From: Pontiellaceae bacterium
Lineage (GTDB): Bacteria > Verrucomicrobiota > Kiritimatiellia > Kiritimatiellales > Pontiellaceae
NCBI GenBank assembly: GCA_016937945.1
Contig: JAFGVP010000062.1
Span: 1-64,000, forward strand
Reading direction: 5' to 3'
Length of the DNA stretch: 64,000 nt
Of the stretch, positions 47,374 to 54,996 are shown in pieces (the first letter of the stretch is position 1; every line of letters begins with the position of its first letter). The position numbers and the translations under genes were made by a program. The notes below the pieces were generated by a model. That model was not told where the DNA came from. It saw only the letters and a list, made by a program, of their open reading frames with translations, and did no database searches.

Positions 47374-47393
47374 ACAGGATTTAATGGTACGTG

Positions 47394-48674
47394 ATGAATC
47401 GAGATAAAAACCTGAGAAGAGATGCTGCAGAGGCATTGCGATGTCCGGTCATGAAACTGCTTCTTTCTCGTGTCGTTCAGGCGAATCTGCCACCGGACTG
47501 CCATGAAAACCGCACGCGGCTCGGTATGCTGGCCGGGTGGACGAGTGTCGTGCTCAGCGTGGTGCTGGCATCCGTTAAGGGTTGGCTTGGTCTGGTTTCG
47601 GGCAGCGCTTCCATGCTGGCTGATGCCACCAACAATCTGACGGATGTCGGAAGCAGTCTGGTGATTGCTCTGGGGTTTCAATGGTCTCGAAAGCCGCGCG
47701 ATGAAAAGCATCCGTTCGGACACGGGCGCATTGAGGCCGTCGCCACGCTGGTTCTTGCCATTGCGTTGATTCTGGTCGGGGTAGAGGTCGCGCAGTCGGG
47801 GATATCGAGGCTGGTCCATCCGAAACCGATCGAGGCGCCGGGGTGGATTCTTGTAACGGTCGGCCTCTCGATTCTTGTTAAATCGTGGATGGCTGTTTTT
47901 GCGAGGGGGCTTGCCCGGTTAACCCGTTCACACGCGCTTGAGGCCGATGCGTGGAATCACACCTTTGATATTATCTGCACGTTGATGGTCGTGGTTGCGC
48001 TGATTTGTTCCCGCTTCGGCTGGGGCGCACTCGATGGATGGATGGCCATCGGCGTGGCTCTTTTTATCCTGTATACGGGCATCACCTATGCACGTGAAGC
48101 CATTGATCATCTGCTGGGAGAAAAGCCTAATCCGATGACGCTTCGTCGGATTTATTCCACGGTAATCGAGGTGGAAGGTGTGATGGGTGCGCATGATATT
48201 ATGGTACATCAGTATGGTGATGTGTACATGGTATCACTGCATGTTGAAGTGGATGCAAACCTCAGTCTGGTAGAGGCGCATCGCATTTCCGAGGAGGCTG
48301 AGGCCGCGGTTGAACAGCAGCTTGGATGGCGCGCGGTGGCCCATGTGGATCCGGTGGACCGCTCTCATGTGCTGTTTGAGGAGTTGAGTCATGTGCTCAA
48401 GGCGTTTGTTGCATCGGAGGCTCGATTGGTGGATGTGCACGATTTGCGCGCCGAAGGGATGGATCCTCCGTATCGAATCTCTTTTGATCTTGTAACGGAC
48501 ATGGATACCGTTCGGCGGGAGTATGATGAGATTTATAGTTCGGGCATCGCGATGCTCAATCATGCATTTTCCGGACGCGTTGACGAGGTTGAAATAGGGA
48601 TCGAGGCCGTGGTTGAAAGTGCGCCGATGTCGCGACGGGTCGTGCATCTGGGTCGGGATGAGACTGTTTCCTGA
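47394..48674 (+). CDS. Cation diffusion facilitator family transporter
   Basis: A 426-residue metal efflux protein, six transmembrane helices. Helix II carries SGSASMLADATNNLTD with the D-x3-N metal site, followed by HPFGHGRIEAVATL, and helix V has ALEADAWNHTFDI. The cytosolic C-terminal domain includes VMGAHDIMVHQYGDVYMVSLHVEVD, and a second, degenerate copy-like extension follows (about 330-420). The family exports Zn, Fe, Mn or others by proton exchange. An ATG follows a GTG at 47391; I use ATG 47394. Confidence 0.92.
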   Translation: MNRDKNLRRDAAEALRCPVMKLLLSRVVQANLPPDCHENRTRLGMLAGWTSVVLSVVLASVKGWLGLVSGSASMLADATNNLTDVGSSLVIALGFQWSRKPRDEKHPFGHGRIEAVATLVLAIALILVGVEVAQSGISRLVHPKPIEAPGWILVTVGLSILVKSWMAVFARGLARLTRSHALEADAWNHTFDIICTLMVVVALICSRFGWGALDGWMAIGVALFILYTGITYAREAIDHLLGEKPNPMTLRRIYSTVIEVEGVMGAHDIMVHQYGDVYMVSLHVEVDANLSLVEAHRISEEAEAAVEQQLGWRAVAHVDPVDRSHVLFEELSHVLKAFVASEARLVDVHDLRAEGMDPPYRISFDLVTDMDTVRREYDEIYSSGIAMLNHAFSGRVDEVEIGIEAVVESAPMSRRVVHLGRDETVS

Positions 48675-48781: not shown

Positions 48782-49129
48782 ATGGATATGCTCGGCAATG
48801 TAGATTGGGTTGCAGACCTCGTTCCCGGACTGGAGTCCCAGCTGGACCAGTTTGTTGTTTCAACAGATGAAGTGGATGAAGAACTGATTGAGGTTTTTGT
48901 CGAAGAGCTGAAGCGGCTGACCGGTGAGCTTCAGGACGGCATGGCGTCCGGGGATGAAGAGCTGGTTCGTCAGGCGGCGCATTCCATCAAGGGAATGGGC
49001 GGGACGATCGGTCTTCCTGAAATTTCCGTTCTGGGACTCACGATCGAAAACTTTGCAAAAGCCGGCCGCCTTGATGAAAGTCGACCTTTGGTGAGCGCTC
49101 TTGCTGACTGGGTGACGACTCTCGCGTAG
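48782..49129 (+). CDS. Histidine-containing phosphotransfer (Hpt) domain protein
   Basis: A 115-residue four-helix bundle carrier. The phosphorylated histidine is His67 in AAHSIKGMGGTIGL, and the acidic helix before it (DEELIEVFVEELKRL) is typical. It passes phosphate between a hybrid kinase and a response regulator, the latter likely the REC protein encoded eight bases downstream. AGGAGAGT lies before ATG 48782. No kinase is in the window, so the phosphate source is unknown. Confidence 0.92.
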   Translation: MDMLGNVDWVADLVPGLESQLDQFVVSTDEVDEELIEVFVEELKRLTGELQDGMASGDEELVRQAAHSIKGMGGTIGLPEISVLGLTIENFAKAGRLDESRPLVSALADWVTTLA

Positions 49130-49137
49130 GAGGTTGC

Positions 49138-50784
49138 ATGAAATCCAAGGATCAGGTGGTCCGAACCGACCCGACCCTCTCCCGTTTTTCCCAGTCGCTC
49201 GCTGGCAAGGTGCTGGTCGTAGACGATGAGCTTCCGAATCGGTTGTATCTGCGGAAGCTGCTGGAAGCCAGAGGGTGCGAGGTCTTCGATACCGAAGGGG
49301 GTGTTGAGGCGCTTGAGCTGGTATCGCAGAAGGCGATGGATCTGATTCTTGTTGATGTCATGATGCCGCATATGGACGGCTTCGAGCTGTGCGGACGCCT
49401 GCGCGAAGAGCCGCATGCCGCCCGCATTCCTATTATCATGGTCACGGCAAAGTCCAAGATAGAAGATATTGAAATGGGCTTTGAGCTTGGCGCAATGGAT
49501 TATATCCGGAAGCCGTTTAATCCGCGTGAACTGGTACTTCGAGTCGGCAATGCTCTTGCTCTCAAGAGAAGCAGCGATGAGTTGACCATCTGGAATAATC
49601 GCGTTTCCCGCGATTTGGAGTTGGCCGGCGCGATCCAGCGCTCTCTGTTCTCCGAGGTGCCGCACTTTTCCCACCGATTTGAAGTGCGGATTGCTTATCG
49701 GACCTGTCTTGCCGTGGGGGGGGACGCTTTTGACATCATTTCACTGCCGAACGGAATGCACTGTGTTTATGTGGCGGATGTTTCCGGGCATGGCGTGGCA
49801 CCGGCTATGATTTCTGCTCTCTTGAAGGCGACCGCTAATGAAATGATTTCCCGGTATGCCGAAAAGGGACCTGCGGAGGTCTGTAATGCTCTTAATGTTG
49901 TGATTCGTCGCCGTATCGATAATCCCGCCTACTTTGCTACTATGTTTATCGCGATTCATGATCCGGAAACGCTGGAGTGGCGGTGTATGAACTGCGGCCA
50001 TCCTGATCCGGTGATCGTGCGCAATAATGAGATCGGGGATTCGTCCATTTTCAGTAAAGGCGGCGGTGCTCCGCTGGGTTTCCCATTCGGTTCAGAGCGG
50101 CCATATTCTGTTGCTGATGAAGTGGTATTCAAAGATGACGGTAATGCATTTCTTCTTTTATATACCGATGGGTTGGTGGAGGCACGCCATCGGGCGACAC
50201 TCAAGGATTGTGCCGGACAAATGGCAGAACATTATCGACGGGTCGTTCGAGATCCCTCCGCGCCGGATAAATCAGATGAGCTGCTGCGGGTGCTTGAGTC
50301 CGAGGGATATGATCTGTCTGCGGATGACTGCACGGCGATCTCTATCCATATGCTTGATCCCGTTAAAATTGTGATTGAGCAGTATGTACCGAGAAATATT
50401 TATCTGGTTTCGGATGTTGCAAAGCAGGCGGAGTCCGCGGTTATGGCCAAGGGGATCGGTGCCAATACGGCGGCAATGCTGCGATTGCTGATCATGGAAC
50501 TAGGAGCGAATCTGGTGGATCATGCAGGGCTGGCCGAAGATGATTCTTTCTGGATTCAGTTGCGAGTGGATGAAAATGTATGCCAGTTGGTGATTGAGGA
50601 TCAGGGCGCTGAGTGGGAGCTTGAGGAGGCTCTGAGTCGGGAGCTGGATGAGGCCTACATGGGCGAGCGGGGGCGGGGCATCGCAATCACCAATGCGATT
50701 GCAAACCGGATTGAACGCTATCGCGTTGAACATAACAATCTGACCTATTGCACTATTATCGACGAAGGGGGAGGCGATGAATGA
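49138..50784 (+). CDS. Response regulator with PP2C phosphatase and HATPase (anti-sigma kinase-like) domains
   Basis: A 548-residue cytosolic signalling protein with REC (about 22-140, phospho-Asp in LILVDVMMPHMDG, switch Lys in YIRKPFNP), a RsbU/SpoIIE-type PP2C (about 190-400: VGGDAFDII, DVSGHGVAPAMI, YTDGLVEAR, DDCTAI) and a RsbW-type HATPase (about 410-540: MELGANLVDHAG, QGAEWE, GERGRGIAITNAIAN). Metal and ATP residues appear intact. So one protein holds both the kinase and phosphatase of a partner switch, with STAS nearby as substrate. AGGAGG precedes ATG 49138; the stop overlaps the sugar transferase start. Confidence 0.92.
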   Translation: MKSKDQVVRTDPTLSRFSQSLAGKVLVVDDELPNRLYLRKLLEARGCEVFDTEGGVEALELVSQKAMDLILVDVMMPHMDGFELCGRLREEPHAARIPIIMVTAKSKIEDIEMGFELGAMDYIRKPFNPRELVLRVGNALALKRSSDELTIWNNRVSRDLELAGAIQRSLFSEVPHFSHRFEVRIAYRTCLAVGGDAFDIISLPNGMHCVYVADVSGHGVAPAMISALLKATANEMISRYAEKGPAEVCNALNVVIRRRIDNPAYFATMFIAIHDPETLEWRCMNCGHPDPVIVRNNEIGDSSIFSKGGGAPLGFPFGSERPYSVADEVVFKDDGNAFLLLYTDGLVEARHRATLKDCAGQMAEHYRRVVRDPSAPDKSDELLRVLESEGYDLSADDCTAISIHMLDPVKIVIEQYVPRNIYLVSDVAKQAESAVMAKGIGANTAAMLRLLIMELGANLVDHAGLAEDDSFWIQLRVDENVCQLVIEDQGAEWELEEALSRELDEAYMGERGRGIAITNAIANRIERYRVEHNNLTYCTIIDEGGGDE

Positions 50785-51511
50785 GTCGATCTATCGAGCA
50801 CGTCGTGAAATGTTCAATACCATGGAAATTCCGGTTTCCAAGGCGGATATCAAGATCCTGAAATGGAAGCAGCGATCTCGCATCGTATTCTGGGAATCGA
50901 TGCTGAAAAGCCTGTTCGTCGTCAAACGAACTCTGGACATAATTGTGAGTCTTGTCGCATTGGTGATTTTATCACCCCTCATGCTGCTTGCCTGCATCCT
51001 GATTATTGCTGAAGATGGTTTTCCTGTTATTTTTTCACAAAAGCGCGTCGGACTTGATGGAAGTGAATTTTACATCCTGAAGTTCCGTACTATGTGCCGG
51101 AATGCCGAGCAGATGAAGGCCGAACTGATGAGGCAGAATGAATCGTCGGGTTCGGTAACGTTTAAAATTAAGAAAGATCCCCGAGTGCTACGATGCGGTC
51201 GGTTCCTTCGGCGCTTCAGTATTGATGAAATCCCCCAGTTTCTGAATGTGCTTTTGGGCGATCTTTCGGTCGTGGGGCCGCGTCCTCCGCTTCCGGAAGA
51301 GGTGAAACACTATTCGCTTTCCGACCGGAAACGGTTGCATGTGAAACCGGGGATTACCTGTATATGGCAGATCAGCGGCCGGGCGGATATTCCGTTTGAC
51401 GGACAGGTCAGTCTGGACATGCAGTATATAAAAAGCCAGGGCTTCCTGACGGATCTGTTAATCGTGTTGAAAACTATTCCTGCGGTTCTTTTTGGTCGCG
51501 GGGCATATTAA
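50777..51511 (+). CDS. Membrane sugar transferase (undecaprenyl-phosphate glycosyl-1-phosphate transferase type)
   Basis: A 244-residue monotopic phosphoglycosyl transferase that begins lipid-linked polysaccharide synthesis. Membrane helix near residues 55-75, then QKRVGLDGSEFYILKFRTM, the region with the catalytic residues, then SIDEIPQFLNVLLGDLSVVGPRPP and PGITCIWQISGR. It is short, i.e. without the multi-helix N-terminal part of WbaP/WcaJ, as in PglC/ExoY-like forms. It overlaps the end of the REC-PP2C gene by eight bases, unusual coupling of a signalling and a glycan enzyme. Confidence 0.93.
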   Translation: MNESIYRARREMFNTMEIPVSKADIKILKWKQRSRIVFWESMLKSLFVVKRTLDIIVSLVALVILSPLMLLACILIIAEDGFPVIFSQKRVGLDGSEFYILKFRTMCRNAEQMKAELMRQNESSGSVTFKIKKDPRVLRCGRFLRRFSIDEIPQFLNVLLGDLSVVGPRPPLPEEVKHYSLSDRKRLHVKPGITCIWQISGRADIPFDGQVSLDMQYIKSQGFLTDLLIVLKTIPAVLFGRGAY

Positions 51512-51523
51512 AGGGAGATGGAA

Positions 51524-51862
51524 ATGATTGATTGCACCAAGCAGGATGGGATCGGAGTTGTTCGGGTGGGGGGCGCCATGACGGCCGCTACCGTGGACAG
51601 CTTCCGGGAACAGCTGGCTGACTGGCAGGAGCGCGAGCCGGAGGTGAAAAACTTTGTAGTGGATCTGGAATCCGTCGATTTTATGGATTCTGCCGGACTC
51701 GGGACTCTGATTGCCGCGTTGAAGCGTATTTCTGAACGAGGTGGCGACATGAAGATTGCCTGTCTTCAGAAAAAACCACGAATGGTTTTCGAAATTACCA
51801 GAGCACACAAGGTTTTTGAGATTTACAACAGCACGGAAGATGCTGTGCGGGCATTTGCCTGA
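51524..51862 (+). CDS. STAS-domain anti-sigma factor antagonist
   Basis: A 112-residue protein like SpoIIAA/RsbV. Strand-turn core VDFMDSAGLGTLIAALKR with the target Ser56 in DSAG, a residue phosphorylated by RsbW-type kinases and restored by PP2C phosphatases, both found in the REC-PP2C-HATPase protein. I chose ATG 51524 over ATG 51518 because AAGGGAG would be too close to the latter. It sits between two sugar-transferase genes, so its client may be one of these rather than a sigma factor. Confidence 0.92.
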   Translation: MIDCTKQDGIGVVRVGGAMTAATVDSFREQLADWQEREPEVKNFVVDLESVDFMDSAGLGTLIAALKRISERGGDMKIACLQKKPRMVFEITRAHKVFEIYNSTEDAVRAFA

Positions 51863-51875
51863 GACTTGGCCGGTC

Positions 51876-53273
51876 ATGATTGCAGTTCTGAATACATCCT
51901 GCCACTGTGTCTGGGCGGAGGCCATCGGTGGACCCCCGTGGTCCCTGCTGCCGATTGCCAATCGGCCTCTTGTGGACTATTGGCTGGAAATGTGTTCCGA
52001 CCTGAAATTGGATCTCGTTCAGGTCATGCTGGGAGAAGATGCGAAGCAGGTAGAGGATTATATCGGCGACGGCAAAAGGTGGAATCTACGCATTGAATAT
52101 GCTTTTGCCCGCACCGGAGAGGCCCCTTGCGATTATCTCTGCTCTATTCGAACGCGTTGGAGTGATGGGTTGCTCTATTTCGGCTATCCCTTTTTTATCC
52201 GCCGGCGGCAGGCTTTTCGTATCGAAGGATTGAACGGTCTGAGGCCGACCTGCTATCGAATTGATCACGATCCCGTGTTTATTTTTGCGCGAGGAAAGGA
52301 TGAGGCGGATGCGCTTCTGCTCGGAGAGGCCGGGTCGCATTCCGGTCTGGAAAGTGTTCACGCCCAGCCATGGATTATTAAGGACATCCATTCGTACTAT
52401 GACCTGAATATGAAAATGGTTGCCGGCGAATTTACCCGCTATACAACGGCTGGTTTTTCATCCGGTGACCGGAGTTCGGTGGGATACAACGTCCATACAC
52501 CGCCATCGAGTCATCTTCAGGCGCCGATCCTGATTGCGGATGACTGTCGTTTCGGGCCGATGACGACGGTGGGCCCGAATGCAGTTGTCGCAAATCATGT
52601 GATTGTCGATTCAAACAGCGAGTTGATTGACTGTCTGGTGCTTTCGGATACCTACATTGGCCGTAATCTCGATATTCATGGAAAAATCGTCGCCGGCAAC
52701 CGTGTGATCAGCCCGGATGACGGTACTGTGATTGAAATTGATGATTCCTGGCTGGTTGCCCGGAACAGGCCTCAGATGAGGGCTGAGGATATCGTTCGTT
52801 GCACGATTCTTTGGTTTGTGGCACTTGCCGTGGTTTTGATTCAATTGATCCCGTTTTGGGTGATCTATCCGCTCGTCCGGATCAGCCGCATTGCCCGGTT
52901 TGAACGACTCACTTTTCATGATCCCCGGACCGGATATATCCGCCTTCCGATCCTGTGTAAGCGCAGGAATGTACGCTCTCCTCTGTTCAGCGCATTCAAG
53001 GCGTTGTCGCTGGACCGTTTTCCTCTGCTGGTCCTGGTTGTGCGGGGCCGGTTGTTTTTGTGCGGGCAGCCGCCGATGCGACACCCTGAAGATGATGAGA
53101 TGATCAAGCAATTGCCGGAATACTATCCCGGCGTTTTCTGTTATCAGGATTATAACAAGGAGTCCGATCGACTGGTCGATTCGTTATGGTATGCTCATAT
53201 CCGTTCGCTTTACGAAGATTTGAAGATTCTGGCCAAATCGCTTCTTTCACGTTTCCTTCGGGGCGGCCGCTGA
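51876..53273 (+). CDS. Degenerate nucleotidyltransferase-hexapeptide protein fused to a partial sugar transferase
   Basis: A 465-residue fusion. Residues about 1-200 look like a sugar-phosphate nucleotidyltransferase (SLLPIANRPLVDYWLEMCSD) but lack the G-x-G-T-R loop that binds the nucleotide. Residues about 215-290 look like left-handed beta-helix repeats (APILIADDCRFGPMTTVG, VVANHVIVDSNSELIDC). A transmembrane segment follows (about 308-330). The end (about 370-465) aligns by eye with the C-terminal half of a sugar transferase (LSLDRFPLLVLVVRGRLFLC, then IRSLYEDLKIL), without the catalytic KFRTM part. ATG 51876 is 13 bases after STAS. Likely a non-catalytic partner. Confidence 0.78.
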   Translation: MIAVLNTSCHCVWAEAIGGPPWSLLPIANRPLVDYWLEMCSDLKLDLVQVMLGEDAKQVEDYIGDGKRWNLRIEYAFARTGEAPCDYLCSIRTRWSDGLLYFGYPFFIRRRQAFRIEGLNGLRPTCYRIDHDPVFIFARGKDEADALLLGEAGSHSGLESVHAQPWIIKDIHSYYDLNMKMVAGEFTRYTTAGFSSGDRSSVGYNVHTPPSSHLQAPILIADDCRFGPMTTVGPNAVVANHVIVDSNSELIDCLVLSDTYIGRNLDIHGKIVAGNRVISPDDGTVIEIDDSWLVARNRPQMRAEDIVRCTILWFVALAVVLIQLIPFWVIYPLVRISRIARFERLTFHDPRTGYIRLPILCKRRNVRSPLFSAFKALSLDRFPLLVLVVRGRLFLCGQPPMRHPEDDEMIKQLPEYYPGVFCYQDYNKESDRLVDSLWYAHIRSLYEDLKILAKSLLSRFLRGGR

Positions 53274-53286
53274 TCGGATTTATAGT

Positions 53287-54996
53287 ATGCTGAAAAAACG
53301 CTGGAATATTCAAACCTCTGACGAATCGTCGTGCGCACGTATGGCTGAACTGGCCGACCTTCCGCGTCCGCTGCTTCAGATGCTGGTCCGGCGCGGCTTG
53401 GCCGATGCCGTCGAACTTCAAACCTTCATCGAGCCGCGGTTGGCGGATCTGGATGATCCGTTTCTGCTTCCTTGTATGCAGACGGCAGTGGACCGTATCT
53501 GGGAGGCCATTCATGCGAATCAGCGGATTGTTGTTTTCGGTGATTATGATGTCGATGGCGTAACGGCGTCCGCCGTTATGATCCGGATTCTGCGGGCGCT
53601 GAAGGCGGATGTGCAGGGTTTTGTTCCTGATCGACTGGACGAAGGATACGGACTTTCCGCAGATTCCGTTGAGCGTTGTTTGACGGAGCTGAGTCCGGCG
53701 CTGATTATTACCGTGGATTGCGGTACAAACTCGGTGCCCTGCGTTGCATCCATTCAGCATCAGGGCGTCGATGTGATTGTAACCGACCATCATGAACCCG
53801 AAGAAATCACGGCCGACGCATTTGCCCTGATCAATCCGAAGCTCGGGCCGACGCTTTCGCATCTTTCCGGGGTGGGAGTTGCTTTCAAGGTGGCCCATGC
53901 ACTGGTGAAACAGGGCCGGGATCTCGAATATGAAGCTGCGATGAAAATTGATCTTCGGCATTTGCTGGATCTTGTGGCTCTCGGAACGGTTGCCGATATT
54001 GTGCCATTGGTGGGCGAAAACCGGATTATTGTACGCCATGGCCTTCTGCAGCTGGCTTCGACCCGATGGGCCGGCATGGCGGCTCTCATTGATGTGGCCG
54101 CCATTCGAGGTGAGCTGAATGCCGGTCACCTTGGTTTTCAAATCGGTCCGCGCATTAATGCCGCCGGCCGGATCGGTGAACCGATGCAGGCGCTGCGCTT
54201 GCTAACGACCGATGATGCGCTGGAAGCGCGAAATATCGCCAAGTTGCTTGATCGTAATAATCGCGAACGGCGCGATATTGAGCACAAAATGGCTGAAGAG
54301 GCTTTTGCGGAAATTGATGCCTATTATGATCCGGATCGGCATTTTGGTCTGGTGGTTGCACGCGAAGGATGGCATCCCGGTGTGGTGGGGATTGTGGCAT
54401 CGCGGGTTTCGCGGCATTATAACCGTCCGGCAATCATCATGGGCATTGATGACGACGGCAGCGCCCGTGGATCGTGCCGGGGAATAGAGTCCTTTGATCT
54501 GCTTGCAGGTCTGCAGGAGTGCGAGCAGTATCTTACTAAATTCGGAGGGCATCGAATGGCTGCCGGTCTGGAAGTCTGTTCCGGTGAATTGAATGCGTTT
54601 AAAAAGGCATTCAACCATGCTGCATCTGTTGCTCTTCGGGATATTGATCTTGCCCCCGTCCTGTGTATTGATGCCGTGCTTTCGGCGGAGGATGTGAACT
54701 GGGCATTTTATGATGCCCTGCGCCATTTGCGTCCGTTCGGGCAGGAGAATCCGGAGCCGGTCTGGGCTCTGATGGGGGTCTGCGTGGCCGGGGCGCCGCG
54801 CGTTGTCGGTAAGCAGCATCTTAAGCTGTATCTTAATGCCGGCGATCGGCAGCTCGATGCGATTGCTTTTAACTATCCGTTGAAGTCGTTGCCGGCCGGT
54901 TTGATTGATGTGGCATTTACGCTCAAGAAAAACAGCTGGAACGGGGATGATGCGCTCCAGCTTCAGGTGGTGGATATTCGACCGTCTCAGCGCTGA
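53287..54996 (+). CDS. recJ: Single-stranded-DNA 5'-3' exonuclease RecJ
   Basis: A 569-residue nuclease acting in recombination and mismatch repair. DHH domain motifs VVFGDYDVDGVTASAVM, VDCGTNS and VIVTDHHEPEE carry the metal ligands; DHHA1 has the SGRGIE-like SCRGIESFDLL and KFGGHRMAAGLEV; the C-terminal OB domain is VVGKQHLKLYLNAG. Standard length. It starts 13 bases after the sugar-transferase fusion and its end faces ybeY with a five-base gap. Confidence 0.96.
   Translation: MLKKRWNIQTSDESSCARMAELADLPRPLLQMLVRRGLADAVELQTFIEPRLADLDDPFLLPCMQTAVDRIWEAIHANQRIVVFGDYDVDGVTASAVMIRILRALKADVQGFVPDRLDEGYGLSADSVERCLTELSPALIITVDCGTNSVPCVASIQHQGVDVIVTDHHEPEEITADAFALINPKLGPTLSHLSGVGVAFKVAHALVKQGRDLEYEAAMKIDLRHLLDLVALGTVADIVPLVGENRIIVRHGLLQLASTRWAGMAALIDVAAIRGELNAGHLGFQIGPRINAAGRIGEPMQALRLLTTDDALEARNIAKLLDRNNRERRDIEHKMAEEAFAEIDAYYDPDRHFGLVVAREGWHPGVVGIVASRVSRHYNRPAIIMGIDDDGSARGSCRGIESFDLLAGLQECEQYLTKFGGHRMAAGLEVCSGELNAFKKAFNHAASVALRDIDLAPVLCIDAVLSAEDVNWAFYDALRHLRPFGQENPEPVWALMGVCVAGAPRVVGKQHLKLYLNAGDRQLDAIAFNYPLKSLPAGLIDVAFTLKKNSWNGDDALQLQVVDIRPSQR

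Follow-up and report, generated by a model that had tools for sequence, protein, structure and literature searches.

Positions 1 to 64,000 of contig JAFGVP010000062.1 (C155 in our numbering; hereafter the window) belong to a marine Pontiella-like bacterium of the Kiritimatiellales (Pontiella group), whose genome comprises 4.28 Mb in 183 contigs. The window carries a block of five genes, which encode a phosphotransfer protein (Hpt), a protein with REC, PP2C and HATPase domains (RPH), a phosphoglycosyl transferase (PGT), a STAS protein, and a nucleotidyltransferase/hexapeptide/pseudo-PGT fusion (FUS). This block is a conserved unit, and the association of its genes is real across the phylum Verrucomicrobiota. 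We lean, if only slightly, towards reading it as a partner switch of the HptB-HsbR-HsbA type, in which STAS would bind PGT and/or FUS and gate glycan initiation, positively or negatively.

A five-gene block conserved as a unit

All five genes lie on the forward strand in the order Hpt-RPH-PGT-STAS-FUS, between a CDF transporter gene on the left and recJ on the right. The two flanking genes, which lie outside the unit and adjoin the block only within the same genus and family, are given last.

48782..49129, + strand: Hpt phosphotransfer protein, 115 amino acids (PF01627, E 1.9e-13)
49138..50784, + strand: RPH, REC-PP2C-HATPase_c_2 protein, 548 amino acids (PF00072, E 8.7e-31; SpoIIE/PP2C, E 7.8e-28; HATPase_c_2, E 1.3e-10)
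50777..51511, + strand: PGT, predicted small monotopic type (Bac_transf), 244 amino acids, overlapping RPH by 8 bp (PF02397, E 5.7e-63)
51518..51862, + strand: STAS, single-domain protein (PF01740, E 1.1e-24; SpoIIAA and TM1442 relatives in PDB)
about 51876..53273, + strand: FUS, 465 amino acids (sub-threshold Bac_transf, hexapeptide and NTP_transferase matches only)
47391..48674, + strand: CDF cation-efflux transporter
53287..54996, + strand: RecJ

A preliminary description of this DNA, made from the sequence alone, had reported five overlapping or nearly touching genes, and all five were recovered at these coordinates, with their domains identified by Pfam matches. Successive spacings along the block are 8, -8 (the overlap), 6, and 13 bp, with another 13 bp from FUS to recJ. 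Since every gap is shorter than 15 bp and one pair overlaps by 8 bp, the five genes are likely carried on a single transcript. A scan of the block region for promoters and terminators was uninformative, returning no more sites than shuffled sequences. Two start codons differ from the nominal ones: STAS likely begins at ATG 51524 (112 amino acids), where nearly all its orthologs begin, and the nominal open reading frame of FUS starts at TTG 51756 inside STAS, with ATG 51876 fitting the orthologs.

About 40 loci of the class, spread over about ten families, show this block order. The relatives that carry names belong to the Kiritimatiellales and include Pontiella sulfatireligans F21 and Pontiellaceae isolates. 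Within the genus and family, SecDF, CDF and RecJ still flank the block; one family further out, and elsewhere in the class, other genes take their place and the five-gene order is unchanged. Because the order recurs while the flanks change, we rejected a chance neighborhood.

We also took a census of 75 loci. The full order Hpt-RPH-PGT-STAS-FUS was found 37 times, RPH-PGT-STAS-FUS with no Hpt detected three times (one truncated by a contig end), STAS-PGT-FUS ten times (two from the same genome), and RPH-Hpt-PGT-FUS six times. Other arrangements were also counted. A further rearrangement reads GAF/PAS-PP2C-HATPase/STAS/PGT/FUS/STAS. PGT and FUS are still adjacent where the signaling genes are rearranged, and a STAS or RPH that is not adjacent survives as a single clear ortholog elsewhere. 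In two loci (L250, L251), for example, a STAS-RPH pair lies 7-8 kb upstream of PGT-FUS in the same exopolysaccharide (EPS) cluster. Neighboring signaling genes are sometimes fused, either Hpt to RPH (L066, L135, L140) or a histidine kinase to Hpt (L065, L133), and in L134 a PAS-HisKA-HATPase-REC-REC hybrid kinase is encoded immediately upstream of Hpt. Some reading frames are split (PGT in L053 and L057, both RPH and STAS in L070), probably through sequencing or assembly errors in these metagenome bins. Separately, three loci (L242, L243, L244) hold relatives of FUS whose similarity is mostly confined to the beta helix and which are clustered with RPH-like and STAS genes, with a PGT in L242; judging from these sequences, clients that are shortened or altered also take part in the association.

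Across 388 Verrucomicrobiota genomes (cut-offs of at least 150 bits for FUS, 80 for STAS, and 190 for RPH), FUS and STAS occurred together in 48, FUS alone in two, STAS alone in 20, and neither in 318; the corresponding counts for FUS and RPH were 47, three, 17, and 321. Overall, the earlier claim that the signaling and transferase genes belong together agrees well with this co-occurrence over the phylum and with the conservation of the block, with the reservation that neighborhood and co-occurrence counts lack phylogenetic independence, the first of several points that weigh against a switch acting on PGT and FUS.

The other points concern the linkage itself. In 13 of the 75 census loci, PGT-FUS had no signaling gene within about 5 kb. 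Conversely, some loci (L232-L236, L238) have an RPH-STAS pair, in part accompanied by Hpt, but neither PGT nor FUS in the vicinity; the module is therefore not tied to PGT alone and its client can differ. PGT-adjacent and PGT-less modules are interleaved in the RPH and STAS trees, of which the STAS tree is weakly resolved, so the PGT association has been gained or lost several times. Finally, the block of the window, as in Pontiella, is surrounded by housekeeping genes rather than an EPS cluster, and the PGT/FUS pair provides the only glycan-related genes of the window. The preliminary description had staked its proposal on homologous loci retaining the transferase genes, which largely held: within the class, the block stays whole across different flanks, and FUS, STAS and RPH co-occur over the phylum, although PGT-less modules do exist.

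These PGT-less modules, together with the precedent of HsbA, which has an enzyme client of the unlinked type (PMC5085249), speak for the view that the block is an old co-inherited operon whose switch controls something unlinked, such as a diguanylate cyclase in the manner of HsbA-HsbD. Against such a neighborhood without function, PGT-FUS stays attached through changes of flanks, of gene order, and of gene fusion (Hpt to RPH, histidine kinase to Hpt), and STAS and RPH are retained as single-copy orthologs even when unlinked. We assign this explanation the lowest probability of those considered here.

The signaling proteins and the enzyme pair

The key residues of an HptB-HsbR-HsbA-type switch are all kept in the block: the Hpt histidine, the receiver aspartate, the PP2C metal-binding aspartates, the kinase N-box, and the STAS serine. 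The phospho-acceptor of Hpt is His67, in the motif AAHSIKG, and this histidine was kept in 30 of 30 orthologs. RPH consists of a receiver (about residues 25-136), a PP2C/SpoIIE phosphatase (about 208-404), and an RsbW/SpoIIAB-like HATPase kinase (about 424-533). Among 12 diverse orthologs, D29/D30/D73/T103/K125 of the receiver, D196/D214/D344/D396/D397 of the phosphatase, and E454/N458/D488/G490/G512 of the kinase were invariant, as was the Asp-Ser pair of the STAS switch loop (motif DFMDSAGLG). The switch serine is Ser58 when counted from ATG 51518 and Ser56 when counted from ATG 51524; as nearly all STAS orthologs start at the latter position, the number Ser56 given previously is the right one.

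By its sequence, PGT is an intact small monotopic phosphoglycosyl transferase. The DX12P motif of the re-entrant helix, a lysine, two arginines, and an Asp-Glu dyad have been defined for PglC (PMC12802240), and PGT carries all of them: D54-X12-P67, K102, R145, D150-E151 and R169 are essentially invariant (70-73 of 73 sequences), with the catalytic dyad present in 73 of 73, and D226 is essentially invariant as well. Its relatives in PDB by sequence are WbaP and PglC. It shares all catalytic and membrane-motif residues with PglC-type small monotopic enzymes and the catalytic domain of WbaP, and differs from them in its obligate neighbor FUS and in an N-terminal extension of about 45 residues ahead of the re-entrant helix. 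The AlphaFold model of PGT was poor (mean pLDDT 64.9) and was not used. The window genome encodes only two intact PGTs, that of the block and one of 489 amino acids, of the large type, on another contig (C139; L261:5216-6679).

FUS is laid out as a pseudo-nucleotidyltransferase, a left-handed beta helix, a hydrophobic helix of about 34 residues, and a pseudo-PGT. Its AlphaFold2 model is confident (mean pLDDT 86.7), and the nearest solved folds combine a nucleotidyltransferase with a beta helix (8x7s tlr0611, GMPPA/GMPPB, and eIF2B). Profile-profile comparison with the intact PGT by hhalign identified the C-terminus as a degenerate PGT (probability 87.8, E 3.3e-6). At the position of the dyad glutamate, 38 of the aligned FUS sequences carry arginine, 20 lysine, 8 leucine, 2 threonine, and one each isoleucine and aspartate; 4 have a gap, and none carries glutamate. 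Inspection of the FUS alignment by eye found no nucleotidyltransferase G-loop (GGxGTR). We thus read FUS as a probable double pseudoenzyme; an active bifunctional enzyme was rejected, since the PGT glutamate is never present, the GGxGTR loop is absent, and the Pfam NTP_transferase match is sub-threshold. The weak domain matches, the hhalign result, and the lost glutamate bear out the degenerate nucleotidyltransferase/sugar-transferase fusion described earlier. Our literature search returned no description of a conserved dead-PGT partner paired with an active PGT.

Sigma factors and glycosyltransferases as candidate clients

The STAS gene does lie between the two transferase genes, as previously noted, and neither a sigma nor an anti-sigma gene adjoins the window block; a sigma gene was not seen beside the block in any locus examined. 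The classical arrangement would nevertheless have the RPH kinase sequester an alternative sigma factor and STAS free it, with the transferases merely co-transcribed or members of the same regulon. The kinase domains of HsbR and CrsR, whose domains are ordered as in RPH, do bind RpoS (PMC6482189), which adds to the points against a glycan-enzyme client, and five Pontiella-group genomes, including that of the window, encode a second region-3 sigma factor of 261-266 amino acids (261 in the window genome) besides RpoD. However, in 10 of the 20 block-bearing genomes of the class, including near-complete, isolate-grade assemblies, we counted a single region-3 sigma factor of RpoD size; the census covered proteins with sigma-70 region 3, which extracytoplasmic function (ECF) sigma factors lack. 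In these genomes, the module is thus maintained in the absence of the kind of sigma factor typical of a partner switch. This weakens the case for an anti-sigma role in them and agrees with the earlier observation of no sigma factor. An anti-sigma role would also leave unexplained the constant association with PGT-FUS and the fusions of STAS to WecG described below. We give it a low probability, though marginally above that of a neighborhood without function.

In other lineages, Poly_export/SLBB, Wzy_C, GT4, GT2 and WecG genes stand beside PGT-FUS, placing the pair in polysaccharide export of the Wzx/Wzy kind, and in relatives STAS is encoded within a polysaccharide locus. Near the block, we also found STAS proteins of 480-530 amino acids, which are WecG/TagA/CpsF glycosyltransferases that carry one STAS domain, or two, at the C-terminus (WecG~STAS). 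They occur directly after FUS in L134, L136 and L138, beside the gene for a fused Hpt~RPH protein in L239, in the genus Pontiella, and in the window genome, where the protein has two STAS domains (C152:41150-42613; L223:1492-2952) and has relatives in many block-bearing genomes. Two genomes bearing PGT-less RPH-STAS pairs (G183 and G203) likewise encode a WecG~STAS protein. The lipid-linked product that a PGT makes is the substrate on which families of the WecG/TagA type act. These fusions are, at the level of sequence, the strongest hint that STAS may contact glycan enzymes. Among the papers searched, none combined "STAS domain" with "phosphoglycosyl transferase", or "WecG" with "STAS domain".

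The same fusions would also fit a switch with another client step, where STAS serves as an assembly or localization adaptor for glycosyltransferases such as WecG~STAS, or for FUS as a subunit sensing nucleoside diphosphate (NDP) sugars, and the PGT active site is untouched. They co-occur with the block in many genomes and adjoin FUS in three, and the nucleotidyltransferase and beta-helix part of FUS resembles GMPPA/GMPPB and eIF2B, in which dead nucleotidyltransferase subunits are regulatory. Yet PGT is the sole invariant enzyme across all arrangements, and most blocks have no WecG~STAS in their vicinity. We regard an adaptor as unlikely, less so than the anti-sigma role.

Other fusions and neighbors were seen in these clusters. 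In other lineages, WecG is fused to a degenerate, PGT-like Bac_transf domain in place of STAS, and its gene immediately precedes those of the active PGT and FUS (L141:8677-10062, and in the L250 and L251 clusters). Directly after FUS in several f44 clusters lies a phosphoribulokinase/uridine-kinase-like gene of about 210 amino acids (L141:5883-6539, with counterparts in L145, L146, L250 and L251). About 3 kb from one block, STAS is fused to a GPP34 (GOLPH3-like) domain (L066:5-736); in eukaryotes, GOLPH3 keeps glycosyltransferases in the Golgi.

The proposed switch and known systems

The preliminary description took Vibrio SypE as the precedent and noted that the domain order of RPH differs from it. 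A closer precedent is HptB-HsbR-HsbA of Pseudomonas. In SypE-SypA, much as proposed for our block, a receiver-bearing serine kinase/phosphatase controls a STAS protein, and the gene for SypA belongs to a polysaccharide locus, but the receiver of SypE is central (kinase-REC-PP2C), no Hpt neighbor is described, and there is no pseudo-PGT (PMC10120452); on domain order, we rejected SypE as the closest relative. HptB-HsbR-HsbA, and also CrsR-CrsA of Shewanella, share with the block the Hpt, REC-PP2C-kinase and STAS genes, the domain order, and a Ser56-type switch (PMC5085249, PMC6482189), so the order is not new. In the block, all three genes are present, with STAS parted from RPH by the PGT gene. 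The clients in these systems are FlgM, HsbD and RpoS, with phosphorylated HsbA of Pseudomonas aeruginosa binding the cyclase HsbD in a Ser56-dependent manner (PMC5085249), whereas the module of the block is locked to PGT and a pseudo-PGT, and many of its hosts, unlike the setting of these systems, have no alternative region-3 sigma factor.

The co-inheritance of a phosphorelay and a switch protein with the initiating enzyme and its dead partner points to a signal that targets the enzyme directly and not at the level of its expression. In the gating model we favor, a hybrid histidine kinase (unlinked in the window genome, just upstream of the block in some relatives) would send phosphate via Hpt to the RPH receiver, which would determine how far the PP2C phosphatase or the RsbW-like kinase of RPH prevails and hence the phosphorylation of STAS at Ser56, a flow predicted from the named families. 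One form of STAS may then bind the proteins that start the glycan; the likeliest partners are the active PGT, FUS or both, and these two may themselves pair. This binding would turn on or off the transfer of sugar-1-phosphate to polyprenyl phosphate, the first membrane step towards an exported polysaccharide.

A signaling protein that controls a PGT directly now has a precedent. In Myxococcus xanthus, phosphorylated EpsW activates the PGT EpsZ post-translationally, apparently by direct contact (PMC12802240). There, as in our proposal, a phosphorylation-dependent signaling protein acts on an initiating monotopic PGT, but the Myxococcus pair consists of a response regulator with a single domain (EpsW) and a PGT of the large type (EpsZ), whereas the block has a STAS protein, a multidomain response regulator, a small PGT of 244 amino acids, and a dead partner. 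As for the WecG~STAS fusions, all4160 of Anabaena is similarly a polysaccharide glycosyltransferase fused to STAS; the glycosyltransferase and the domain order (N-terminal STAS) are different, in a comparison made by description only (PMC8256260).

More tentatively, and short of what we would expect, STAS may be an allosteric subunit under phosphorylation control that brings a PGT/FUS membrane pair together or separates it, with WecG~STAS passing the switch on to the next glycosyltransferase. A partner switch would then control by contact both the initiating step of lipid-linked glycan assembly and the one after it in much of Verrucomicrobiota.

STAS regulators of polysaccharides with no evident sigma factor, such as SypA of Vibrio and HmpV of Nostoc, have unknown targets. 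Since the target of SypA in Vibrio fischeri is unknown (PMC10120452), the block offers a testable candidate: the locus links STAS to one named enzyme pair across a phylum, and STAS domains also share a polypeptide with a glycosyltransferase from that pathway. Pontiella isolates secrete a sulfated glycosaminoglycan-like EPS in stationary phase, which provides a measurable phenotype (PMC7356697). If the link between STAS and PGT/FUS holds, the initiating PGT and its partners would be concrete candidates for the missing STAS target, and phosphorylation control of glycan initiation, so far shown for EpsW-EpsZ in Myxococcus, may be more general.

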